From Labilithrix sp. (GTDB lineage Bacteria > Myxococcota_A > Polyangia > Polyangiales > Polyangiaceae): a DNA stretch of 64,000 nucleotides. Numbering within the stretch: the stretch's first letter is position 1; every line of letters begins with the position of its first letter. Positions 1 to 22,858 of the stretch are shown here, one piece after another. The DNA lies in the NCBI GenBank assembly GCA_019637175.1, contig JAHBWD010000045.1, positions 1 to 64,000 on the forward strand, read 5' to 3'. The position numbers were made by a program, and so were the translations under genes. The notes beneath the pieces are model-generated. The model did no database searches. It saw nothing but the letters and a program-made list of their open reading frames with translations, and was not told where the DNA came from.

Positions 1-262
1 CTGTCGTAGCCGCCGCCGCTGTCGTAGCCGCCGCCGCTGTCGTAGCCGCCGCCGCCGTCATAGCCGCCCGTGTCGTATCCACCGGCGTCGGCGCCGCCGT
101 CATAGCCGCCCGTGTCGTATCCGCCAGCGTCAGCTCCGGTGTCATAGCCGCCCGCATCGCCGGTGTCGTAGCCGCCGGCTTCGGCGCCCGCGTCGTCGTA
201 GCCGCCGGCGTCGTCGTAGCCGCCGGCTTCGGCGCCCGTGTCGTCATAGCCGCCGCTCTCGT
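1..262. repeat. Degenerate tandem repeats encoding GGYD[S/T/D/A] units
   Basis: Short 15-21 bp units of the type cgtagccgccg/ctgtcgtagccgcc are repeated across the left edge. On the minus strand they encode Gly-Gly-Tyr-Asp units with variable spacers (GAEA, AGG, TGD). Such arrays change length easily, so copy number may differ between strains or assemblies. Confidence 0.85.
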
Positions 263-995
263 CGCCGGCTTCCGCGTTCGCTTCCCCGCCCGTCTCGCCG
301 CCCGCGTTCGCTTCCACGTCCGCTTCCGCTTTCGCTTCCCCGCCCGTCTCGCCGCCCGCGTTCGCTTCCACGTCCGCTTCCGCGTTCGCTTCCCCGCCGG
401 CCTCGCCGCCCGCGTTCGCGTCGCTCCCGGCTTCCGTGTTCGCCTCCCCTTCCGACTCCGCGCCCGCGTTCGCTTCGCTGCCCGCCTCCGCGTTCGCTTC
501 CCCGCTCGTCTCGCCGCCCGCGTTCGCCTCGCTACTCGATTCCGTGTTCGAGCCGCTCTCTCCGTTCGTCTCGTTCGACGTATCCCCCGCGGTGCTGCCC
601 GCCTCGCCCGTGTTGCTCGCCTCTCCGGTGTTCTCGTTCCCCGCGCTCGGCGGCGTCGGCACGCTCGGCGTCGTCGACTGCGGCGCCTCGAAGCGCCCGG
701 GACTGATCGACCCGTCGGGGTTCACCGACGCAGGGATGTACGTATCGCCCGGCGCGCCGTTGCCCGGCGTCGGGTTCAGATACGAGTCGACGCGGTTGTA
801 GATGCTGTTGAGCGTCTCGATCGCCTGCGTCCCGCGCGCCACGAGCAGCGCCGGGTTCTGCGCGAGCACCATCGCCATGGGCGCAGCCATCGCCCCGACG
901 ACGAGCGGTAGAAAGAAGAGCCCTCCCTGTACGTTCTCGAGCTCTGCCTCATCGAGCTCGATCCAAGTCGGCTGCGGCGCGTCCATGTCCTTCAT
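1..995 (-). CDS. Double-glycine-leader secreted repeat protein (partial, 3' end beyond window)
   Basis: The frame reads leftward from an ATG at 995 and stays open to the window edge (at least 331 codons). A GGAGG lies 5 nt upstream of that ATG. The N-terminus carries LDEAELENVQGG, which matches the bacteriocin/ComC-type double-glycine leader (E at -8, L at -7, V at -4, GG at -2/-1); it is followed by a hydrophobic stretch of about 20 residues (LFFLPLVVGAMAAPMAMVLA). The next part (about residues 45-110) is Pro/Ser/Thr-rich. From about residue 110 the protein becomes Glu/Asn/Ala/Gly repeats with an 18-residue period, then GGYDx repeats up to the edge. Family knowledge: such leaders are cleaved by C39-peptidase ABC exporters, none of which is visible here. 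The inference is an exported, surface or extracellular repeat protein or an unusual RiPP-like precursor. It is divergent from the RCC1 lipoprotein gene. The true C-terminus is unknown. Confidence 0.8.
   Translation of the reverse strand, partial: MKDMDAPQPTWIELDEAELENVQGGLFFLPLVVGAMAAPMAMVLAQNPALLVARGTQAIETLNSIYNRVDSYLNPTPGNGAPGDTYIPASVNPDGSISPGRFEAPQSTTPSVPTPPSAGNENTGEASNTGEAGSTAGDTSNETNGESGSNTESSSEANAGGETSGEANAEAGSEANAGAESEGEANTEAGSDANAGGEAGGEANAEADVEANAGGETGGEAKAEADVEANAGGETGGEANAEAGDESGGYDDTGAEAGGYDDAGGYDDAGAEAGGYDTGDAGGYDTGADAGGYDTGGYDGGADAGGYDTGGYDGGGGYDSGGGYDSGGGYD
277..434. repeat. 54-bp tandem repeat inside the double-glycine-leader gene
   Basis: The motif TTCGCTTCCCC recurs at 277, 331 and 385, a 54-bp (18-residue) period; the first two copies are nearly identical over their whole length and the third is partial and diverged. 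The minus-strand translation is a Glu/Ala/Gly/Asn-rich unit. The period is a multiple of three, so copy changes would keep frame. Confidence 0.8.
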
Positions 996-21386: not shown

Positions 21387-22496
21387 ATGACTCGAACGGG
21401 ACGCCGCGCCGGCACACGCGCTCGCGGCGCGAGCGCCGTGCAGTACATGGTGATCGTCGCGCTGGTGCTCGGCGCGATCGCCGGCGCCGTGAGGGTCTAC
21501 GGAGCCTCGATCGAGTCGGGCTCGGGCAAGCTCGCCACCCACGTGAAGACGCAGGGCGGCGGCGGCGCGATGCCGGCGCACGATCTGACGTCCGCGCTGA
21601 ACGGCCTCGGCGAGGGATCGCCGACCGATCCCGTCCCGTCGTCGAACCCGGACGATCCGGTCGAGGCCGATCCGGCGGCGCTGCTCGATCGCGTCCCGAC
21701 GCTCGGCGACGACGAGGAGCCTCCGCCGGCCGAGCAGGAGGAGCCGCCGGTCGACTACGACGCGCCCCGGCGCGCGCTCATCCGCGGCGTGCCCTTCGTG
21801 CGCGGCGAGGGGCATCGAACGCCGGTGCACCCGGCGGACGTCTCGCAAGGCGCGATCGCGAACTGCTATTTCATCGCGCCGCTCGCGTCGATCGCGCATC
21901 GCGTGCCCGGGCTGCTCCAGTCGGGCATCATCCGCAACCCGCGAGGCAACGGCTACCTCGTGCGCCTCTTCGTCGACGGCCGCGCGCGGTGGGTGCCGGT
22001 CGACAGTCGGTTCCCGGTCAACGACGACGGCCAGCCGATCTACGCGCAGCCCGGTCAATCCTCACCAAGGGGCCAGGAGCTCTGGGTGATGCTCTACGAG
22101 CGCGCCTTCGCGAGCGTCGGCGGCGGCTACAACGGCATCGGCCACGGCGGAAACGCCGCCGCGGCGCTCGAGATGCTCACGGGCCAGCCGTCGACGAGCC
22201 ACGATCCCGCCCGCATGTCGTTCCGGACCTTCGCCGCGTACGTGAACCACGGCTACGCCGTCGTCGCGGGGACGCCGGAGAAGAGCGATCACGAGCTCTT
22301 CAAGAACGACACGCTCGCGACGTGGCATGCTTACTGGGTGGAGAGCGTCGACGTCAGGCGCGGCACGGTCACGCTGCGCAACCCCTGGGGCTGGCAGGAG
22401 GCCCCCATCACCCTCACCTGGGCGGAGTTCCGCCAGGTCTTCGGCTCGGTCATGACGAACCCCATCACCCCACGCGCCCCGGCGAGGCAACGATGA
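21387..22496 (+). CDS. Flp/TadE-pilin-like N-terminus fused to calpain-type cysteine protease
   Basis: The 369-residue protein opens with a basic segment followed by GASAVQYMVIVALVLGAIAG, which closely resembles the processed start of Flp/Fap pilins (GAxxxEY plus hydrophobic helix), except that Q replaces the usual E. A Pro/Asp/Glu-rich linker (about 75-125) leads to a C2 calpain catalytic core. The nucleophile Cys160 lies in QGAIANCYFIAPLAS, His314 in WHAYWVESV and Asn332 in LRNPWGW, so the triad is complete. No calcium-binding C2L or EF-hand region is present. Its stop overlaps the ATG of the next gene. It is inferred to be a membrane-tethered or pilus-exported protease. Confidence 0.85.
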   Translation: MTRTGRRAGTRARGASAVQYMVIVALVLGAIAGAVRVYGASIESGSGKLATHVKTQGGGGAMPAHDLTSALNGLGEGSPTDPVPSSNPDDPVEADPAALLDRVPTLGDDEEPPPAEQEEPPVDYDAPRRALIRGVPFVRGEGHRTPVHPADVSQGAIANCYFIAPLASIAHRVPGLLQSGIIRNPRGNGYLVRLFVDGRARWVPVDSRFPVNDDGQPIYAQPGQSSPRGQELWVMLYERAFASVGGGYNGIGHGGNAAAALEMLTGQPSTSHDPARMSFRTFAAYVNHGYAVVAGTPEKSDHELFKNDTLATWHAYWVESVDVRRGTVTLRNPWGWQEAPITLTWAEFRQVFGSVMTNPITPRAPARQR

Positions 22497-22858
22497 AGAC
22501 CCGCGCTACGATCCTCGCGCTCGCCCTCGCGCTCGCCGGCGTCACCGTCGCTCCCGCCGCGATCGCCGACGCCAGCGCCCCCGCCCAGGCAGCCCACGTG
22601 ATCACCATCAGCACGAACAGCCAGGTGACCCTCGACGATCTCCGGATCGCGGCGTTCAACGTCCGCGAGGAGACCTACAAGGACGACAAGGGCGCGGACG
22701 CCAAAGGCCTCACCGCGGCGCTCCACGTCTTCGTGCGCGACGACGCGGCGAAGAACCAGAAGCTGCGCGTTCACGCCGGTCAGACGTTCTCCGCGAGCGG
22801 CAAGACCTTCGAGGTCGTGTCGATCGAGAAGACCGGCGTGAAGCTGCAGGTGAAGTGA
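22493..22858 (+). CDS. Small secreted protein coupled to the calpain gene
   Basis: The 121-residue protein has a classical signal peptide (ILALALALAGVTVAPAAIA, cleavage near ADA) and a mature domain of about 95 residues with alternating beta-strand character and no cysteines. Its ATG overlaps the calpain stop codon (ATGA), so the two are translationally coupled and should be made in fixed ratio. By position it is a candidate inhibitor, chaperone or substrate of the calpain, but no family is recognised, so this is inference from context only. Confidence 0.8.
   Translation: MKTRATILALALALAGVTVAPAAIADASAPAQAAHVITISTNSQVTLDDLRIAAFNVREETYKDDKGADAKGLTAALHVFVRDDAAKNQKLRVHAGQTFSASGKTFEVVSIEKTGVKLQVK

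Follow-up and report, generated by a model that had tools for sequence, protein, structure and literature searches.

What would a calpain-type protease do with the N-terminus of a pilin, and why should its gene run into that of a small exported protein? The question is raised by a two-gene locus at positions 21,387 to 22,858 of the window, by which we mean the whole stretch of 64,000 nucleotides analysed here, from Labilithrix sp. (contig JAHBWD010000045.1). The first gene encodes a protein of 369 residues, denoted here as Flp::calpain, in which a segment resembling a Flp (Tad) pilin precedes a calpain domain, and the second encodes a protein of 121 residues. The answer developed below, which we regard as reasonably probable, is that the calpain protein is a protease effector of a class of polymorphic toxins that use a whole Flp (Tad) pilin as their trafficking module.

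The calpain domain, its pilin-type N-terminus and its neighbour

The Pfam family Peptidase_C2 (PF00648) matches residues 147-338 of the 369-residue protein (E 3.1e-22; 79.5 bits against a cut-off of 23.8), which also matches human calpains in sequence. When aligned with 29 other calpain domains from Myxococcota, Cys160, His314 and the oxyanion Gln154 are invariant and Asn332 nearly so. The AlphaFold2 model of the fusion shows a helix at residues 16-45, a long linker of low confidence and a calpain domain from residue 128 onwards, with a predicted local distance difference test score (pLDDT) mostly above 90, and the top matches of this domain in the PDB are the protease cores of human calpains (calpain-1 core, Foldseek E 4e-15). 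The intact C2 triad described in the initial annotation is therefore exactly as stated there, and the protein belongs, by sequence, to calpain family C2 with its catalytic residues preserved, so that proteolysis is predicted.

The N-terminus contains all the parts of a class III prepilin, namely the leader, a Gly at -1 and a hydrophobic helix right after it. Gly14, the expected -1 residue, is invariant across the Flp pilins and the other fusions in the alignment, and the modelled helix begins directly past the predicted 14|15 cleavage site. As the sole query against its own genome, Flp::calpain retrieved a short Flp pilin and, by their N-termini, two large proteins (E 2e-4 to 5e-4). A profile of Flp-type N-termini built without Flp::calpain scored it at 63.9 bits, the best of about 3,700 shuffled decoys (in about half of which the composition of the hydrophobic segment was preserved) reaching 23.5, and a profile made from 98 segments of the loci of other genomes gave 22.6 bits against 17.4 for shuffles; judged from these comparisons, the Flp-type match exceeds chance. 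The segment is closest to two of the toxin-like HINT proteins described below, those of contigs C5 and C64, and to the Flp pilin of the C5 Tad locus, its nearest neighbours being the Flp module of the C5 HINT protein (44%) and that Flp pilin (35%). Pfam Flp_Fap (PF04964) does not match Flp::calpain at E ≤ 10; it matches 18 of the 30 members of the fusion set (E ≤ 0.05), and the C5 Flp pilin also falls below its cut-off. Consequently, the Flp/TadE pilin helix proposed at the outset holds as a Flp-type helix but lacks both a Flp_Fap match and the Glu typical of position +5, and because this last feature fails, the N-terminus is termed here pilin-like and not a proven filament subunit.

The overlap of the next gene through an ATGA and its secreted product of 121 residues were confirmed, the Sec-type leader being judged by inspection. 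Searches with this protein gave nothing in NCBIfam or PADLOC and weak matches only in PHROGs, and DUF6406 of Pfam was discarded because its score lay under the cut-off. Its model is of moderate confidence (pLDDT 63.5), and a PilP-like fold was likewise set aside (Z 4.6, within noise). Its most likely role is that of an inhibitor-type partner of the calpain, and, by analogy with the pairs described below, it may be the periplasmic immunity protein of the protease; this keeps the inhibitor of the initial annotation's "inhibitor or substrate". Since the partner is exported, action of the calpain in the envelope or periplasm is indicated.

The Flp module in toxin-like proteins and its ties to Tad loci

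A profile search of the Labilithrix genome itself (151 contigs, estimated contamination 6%, composition consistent at 67-72% GC among the contigs used) for Flp-type N-termini returned, besides Flp pilins and the calpain, three proteins of about 870, 910 and 1,280 residues on C5, C64 and C13, a 323-residue protein on C98 and a glycine-rich protein on C20. The three long proteins contain a Pretoxin HINT domain (PT-HINT, PF07591), and they are the only PT-HINT matches of the genome. The domain is present in 30 of 108 genomes of the family, and in the loci read a Flp module stands ahead of it in 28 proteins, three from the present genome (G000) and 25 from five other sampled genomes of the family (G030, G439, G440, G423 and G433), in which about 14 HINT-less Flp fusions were also found. 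When such proteins were sought beyond the family, only three of the 80 best HINT relatives in genome_contigs had the Flp module, and these come from one metagenome-assembled genome that is already in the set.

The HINT domains of these 28 proteins match each other in all 378 pairs, while their C-termini do so in only 27 pairs and fall into 16 groups. This combination of uniform HINT and divergent C-termini is, as far as sequence can tell, the hallmark of polymorphic toxins. The recognisable C-termini include six barnase-type Ribonuclease domains, a YwqJ deaminase, a GH-E nuclease and an ADP-ribosyl cyclase; the tails of four further loci (L020, L184, L187 and L190), for which Pfam returned nothing, we take to be RNase-A-like, and they are not used as evidence. 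Among the HINT-less fusions (G030, G439 and G440) are lipase-like, YwqJ deaminase and ADP-ribosyl cyclase C-termini, the lipase-like domains having a GHSLGGG motif and resembling Mbeg1-like or Lipase_3 with weak Pfam scores. Thus, a common N-terminal module joined to unrelated C-terminal toxin domains, as in polymorphic toxins, is present in the family, and the calpain shares this module. Because the module also heads toxin-like proteins without HINT, the calpain can be counted among the HINT-less members, with a cargo of its own.

The genes downstream of these relatives, many of which belong to recognised immunity families, point in the same direction. Barstar genes directly follow barnase-type Flp fusions (E 4e-24, 3e-8 and 2e-6), an Imm74 match (1e-18) was found among the genes directly downstream of Flp fusions, and SUKH-3 (4e-29) directly follows a HINT-less Flp::YwqJ deaminase. 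Each of two orthologous Flp::lipase-like genes (L185 and L188) shares 7 bases with a following gene whose product is an ankyrin protein with a lipoprotein leader, and a similar ankyrin gene lies 29 bases downstream of a third (L179), so that in the Flp::lipase-like/ankyrin-lipoprotein pairs an overlapping gene for an exported partner recurs in the layout of the calpain and its neighbour. The partners are leaderless for the nuclease, deaminase and cyclase members and exported for these three lipase-like ones. Gene calls, both in the window and in the relatives, came from a simple codon-usage script, and the downstream gene starts are therefore approximate.

As to the machinery, the presence of Tad genes in the genome, which the initial annotation had singled out for checking, was borne out: four genes for RcpC and six for prepilin peptidases (Peptidase_A24) were found, with Tad loci on C5, C98, C69, C14 and elsewhere, of which C69 has both secretin and ATPase and C14 an ATPase. 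On C5, the Tad locus ends with the Flp::HINT gene, which is on the same strand. In G433, which represents another genus, a complete Tad locus encloses a Flp::HINT gene that is followed after 5 bases by a partner gene, with TadE/TadG-like genes on one side of the two and Flp pilin, prepilin peptidase, RcpC, secretin and ATPase on the other, and in G423 one Flp::HINT gene shares its contig with a Tad locus about 6-15 kb away. All six genomes with Flp fusions have RcpC and prepilin peptidases. The Tad loci of C5 (L018) and C98 (L046/L047) were seen to consist of RcpC, two T2SSF-type proteins, an FHA-like protein, Flp and prepilin peptidase, with no secretin or ATPase observed; the C5, C98, C69 and C14 loci may share a motor.

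Other Flp-type genes were noted along the way. The 323-residue protein of C98 (L046:3856-5636, minus strand) has a pretoxin-like linker, and its gene is overlapped by 4 bases by that of a 270-residue membrane protein; Pfam matches neither product, and the two may be another effector-immunity pair of this genome. The C20 protein (L049:4939-5508) belongs to a conserved family (also in L150, L151, L153, L191, L192 and L195) whose members combine a Flp-type N-terminus with a glycine-rich stretch and have a second transmembrane helix. A Ser/Thr kinase gene adjoins in three of these loci; as the family is without an effector domain, it is regarded as another use of the pilin module. The pilin segments of the C98 and C20 proteins are close to the Flp pilin of C69. 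Short Flp pilin genes, numerous and nearly identical, are arrayed in tandem at G030:C1:9400190-9411558 (about 17 matches), G439:C1:3618448-3624392 and G440:C1:3661471-3667401.

The features of the calpain locus are collected in Table 1. A scan for promoters and terminators at the locus gave nothing informative. At one end of the window (positions 1-995, minus strand) a protein of at least 331 residues begins with a leader of the double-glycine type (WIELDEAELENVQGG) and has a long Gly/Tyr/Asp repeat at its C-terminal end.

Table 1. Positions, in the window, of the two genes and of the parts of the fusion protein
Feature	Position	Strand	Basis or remark
Flp-pilin::calpain fusion gene	21387..22496	+	369 aa, ATG start
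Basic prepilin (class III) leader MTRTGRRAGTRARG, predicted cleavage after Gly14	21387..21428	+	Alignment with Flp pilins and other fusions; processing inferred
Flp-pilin-like helix, residues 15-45 (ASAVQYMVIVALVLGAIAGAVRVYGASIESG), Gln at +5	21429..21521	+	Sequence comparison; AlphaFold2 helix 16-45
Flexible Pro/Asp/Glu-rich (acidic) linker, residues 46-127	21522..21767	+	Low AlphaFold2 confidence, short helical stretches only; composition
C2 calpain protease domain, residues 128-358 (Q154, C160, H314, N332)	21768..22460	+	Pfam, alignment, AlphaFold2, Foldseek
Exported beta-rich orphan protein of 121 aa, candidate periplasmic immunity protein	22493..22858	+	ATGA overlap with the calpain stop codon

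Effector, surface protease or membrane anchor

Because the same pilin module heads a polymorphic-toxin-like series with immunity genes, an effector with its immunity protein explains the locus better than a protease displayed on a pseudopilus or at the surface. The latter had been the initial proposal, of which the Flp/Tad-type fusion stands while the function assigned to it gives way. A broader and more tentative extension is that this group of myxobacteria delivers toxins by its Tad pili, with the effector built covalently into a pilin subunit, the whole Flp pilin carrying nucleases, deaminases, NADases, lipases or a calpain, and the immunity proteins being cytosolic or periplasmic according to the site of action.

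For the Flp::calpain pair, toxicity, processing, export by Tad, delivery and inhibition are what we infer, and the course of events can be pictured as follows. The basic leader would direct the protein into the inner membrane such that its calpain domain lies in the periplasm, and a Tad prepilin peptidase (TadV/CpaA), such peptidases being encoded in the genome, would cut after Gly14 to give a mature helix starting with ASAVQY. The Tad machine would then take up the pilin helix and the effector would leave through the secretin, probably in a tip or minor-pilin position, given its bulky cargo and a Gln at +5 in place of the Glu that packs inside the filament. On contact, the calpain would attack proteins of the envelope or periplasm of the target cell. 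Release from the pilin might, speculatively, occur by HINT autoprocessing in the HINT-bearing relatives, and by cutting of its own linker in the HINT-less calpain. Meanwhile, the exported 121-residue protein would inhibit the calpain in the periplasm of the producer and its kin.

Several observations weigh against this account. Residue +5 is Gln (with Tyr+6 kept), at a position where 45 of 49 other fusions have Glu-Tyr. GspK, the tip pseudopilin of type II secretion, is also without Glu+5, and the Gln may thus fit a place at the pilus tip, yet it speaks against an ordinary filament pilin. Pfam detects no HINT domain in the calpain protein, and no tad gene was recognised near it among the gene calls of the window, which was not searched as a whole for these families. 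The passage of a folded domain of about 25 kDa through a Tad secretin on a pilin is an assumption. The hope of finding the same fusion and neighbour in relatives was disappointed: none of 73 other myxococcotal calpain open reading frames has a Flp N-terminus, the whole fusion has no relatives in genome_contigs or among 58 relatives, and the 121-residue protein has no homologue in its own genome or in 184 genomes of the order. The fusion is, therefore, a single case, seen in this genome alone. A fold search with the model of the small protein gave no reliable match either and, with neither relatives nor a clear fold, its immunity role is read from position and export. Lastly, the correspondence between exported or leaderless partners and the type of toxin is suggestive, as it comes from few independent cases with leaders judged by eye, and the other lipase-like members have no such exported ankyrin partner.

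The rival that survives best, although unlikely, retains the pilus and discards the toxin: the calpain would be a surface or pilus-borne processing protease, displayed by Tad for nutrition, predation or the maturation of surface proteins, with the 121-residue protein as its regulator or chaperone. The same architecture fits it, a predator that digests extracellularly would likewise be served by lipase-like and protease cargo, and even the noise-level PilP-like match of the small protein could be enlisted. However, the module is common to nuclease, deaminase and NADase domains accompanied by barstar, SUKH-3 and Imm74, which would make no sense as digestive surface enzymes, and the tight overlap with an orphan exported gene suits an effector-immunity pair.

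More improbable still is a plain inner-membrane anchor, in which the Flp-like helix would tether a periplasmic calpain, independently of Tad, for the stress response or quality control of the cell's own envelope. The Gln at +5, the absence of HINT and of a Flp_Fap match, and the lack of recognised Tad genes nearby in the window are all consistent with it. Nevertheless, the specific Gly14/Ala/Tyr signature of leader and helix and the closeness to the Flp pilin of a Tad locus argue for a pilin, and the relatives of the module lie in or beside Tad loci. Finally, a toxin-antitoxin-like or phage-defence suicide module, in which the calpain kills its producer and the small protein restrains it, would account for the two-gene overlap, but export signals on both products, where abortive defence is cytosolic, and the lack of a PADLOC match make it very improbable.

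Relation to known systems

If the locus is indeed that of a pilin-borne protease effector, its nearest counterparts lie among secreted toxins and Tad pili. Outer membrane exchange toxins of myxobacteria have a lipoprotein leader. The myxobacterial toxin-immunity pairs of this polymorphic kind are alike as pairs, but they are delivered by outer membrane exchange and not by a pilin module. Cysteine proteases of papain or calpain fold also serve elsewhere as secreted effectors: WXG::calpain toxins of the type VII secretion system are mentioned in a review on calpains (PMC4631099), and Cpe1, a papain-like protease toxin, has been characterised together with its immunity protein (PMC12136450), encoded, as here, by an adjacent gene. 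Their trafficking is different, through WXG in the former case and type VI secretion or contact-dependent inhibition in the latter, and no pilin is involved.

The PT-HINT polymorphic toxins (PMC3482391) share with the Flp fusions the conserved trafficking part, the HINT domain, the variable C-terminal toxin and the adjacent immunity gene, as well as the same kinds of toxin and immunity families; the accessible parts of that 2012 survey mention neither a pilin trafficking module nor a calpain. The closest precedent is found in a single line and one drawn protein (Fig. 5) of PMC12605009, in which a Flp pilin is fused to an ADP-ribosyl cyclase (ARC) toxin. The protein drawn is probably no. 10, WP_394825747 of Pendulispora albinea, since this is the myxobacterium among the organisms listed there. 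As in the present case, a Flp pilin is joined to the domain of a polymorphic toxin, and the organism is probably a related myxobacterium, but in that line and figure it is termed an extracellular or anchoring element, and no Tad delivery, class or protease cargo is proposed. The initial annotation, which knew of no described system, was thus nearly right. No description of pilin-fused toxins as a class was found in the literature, with preprints and most subscription papers outside its scope, and both the Flp-pilin toxin class and the Flp::calpain fusion appear to be undescribed. If our proposal is true, it would extend the trafficking domains of polymorphic toxins to pilins and the protease toxins to a calpain, and would represent, as a class, an undescribed pilin-based route of toxin delivery.

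A further comparison is with the Kil/Tad pilus of Myxococcus xanthus, which kills prey and has tip minor pilins, KilLMN, with variable C-terminal domains (PMC8460266, PMC12075869). Both systems involve a Tad-type machine and bulky pilins with extra C-terminal domains, employed, or in our case presumably employed, against other bacteria. Beside the calpain gene no KilLMN-type cluster was found, as neither the neighbouring gene calls nor a motif scan of the window revealed another pilin-like gene. The extra domain of KilN4 was reported without a known function, and the Kil toxin had not been discovered at the time of publication: the 2021 paper stated that it was still to be found and that toxin secretion by Kil was unclear (PMC8460266), and the authors of the 2025 paper suspect that the tip is toxic (PMC12075869). 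Unlike in Kil, the cargo here can be recognised as an enzyme, its pilin is of the Flp type with a single helix, and an immunity candidate accompanies it. Pilin-effector fusions with recognisable toxin and immunity domains, some of them in Tad loci, would therefore make possible a direct test of how Tad and Kil pili kill.
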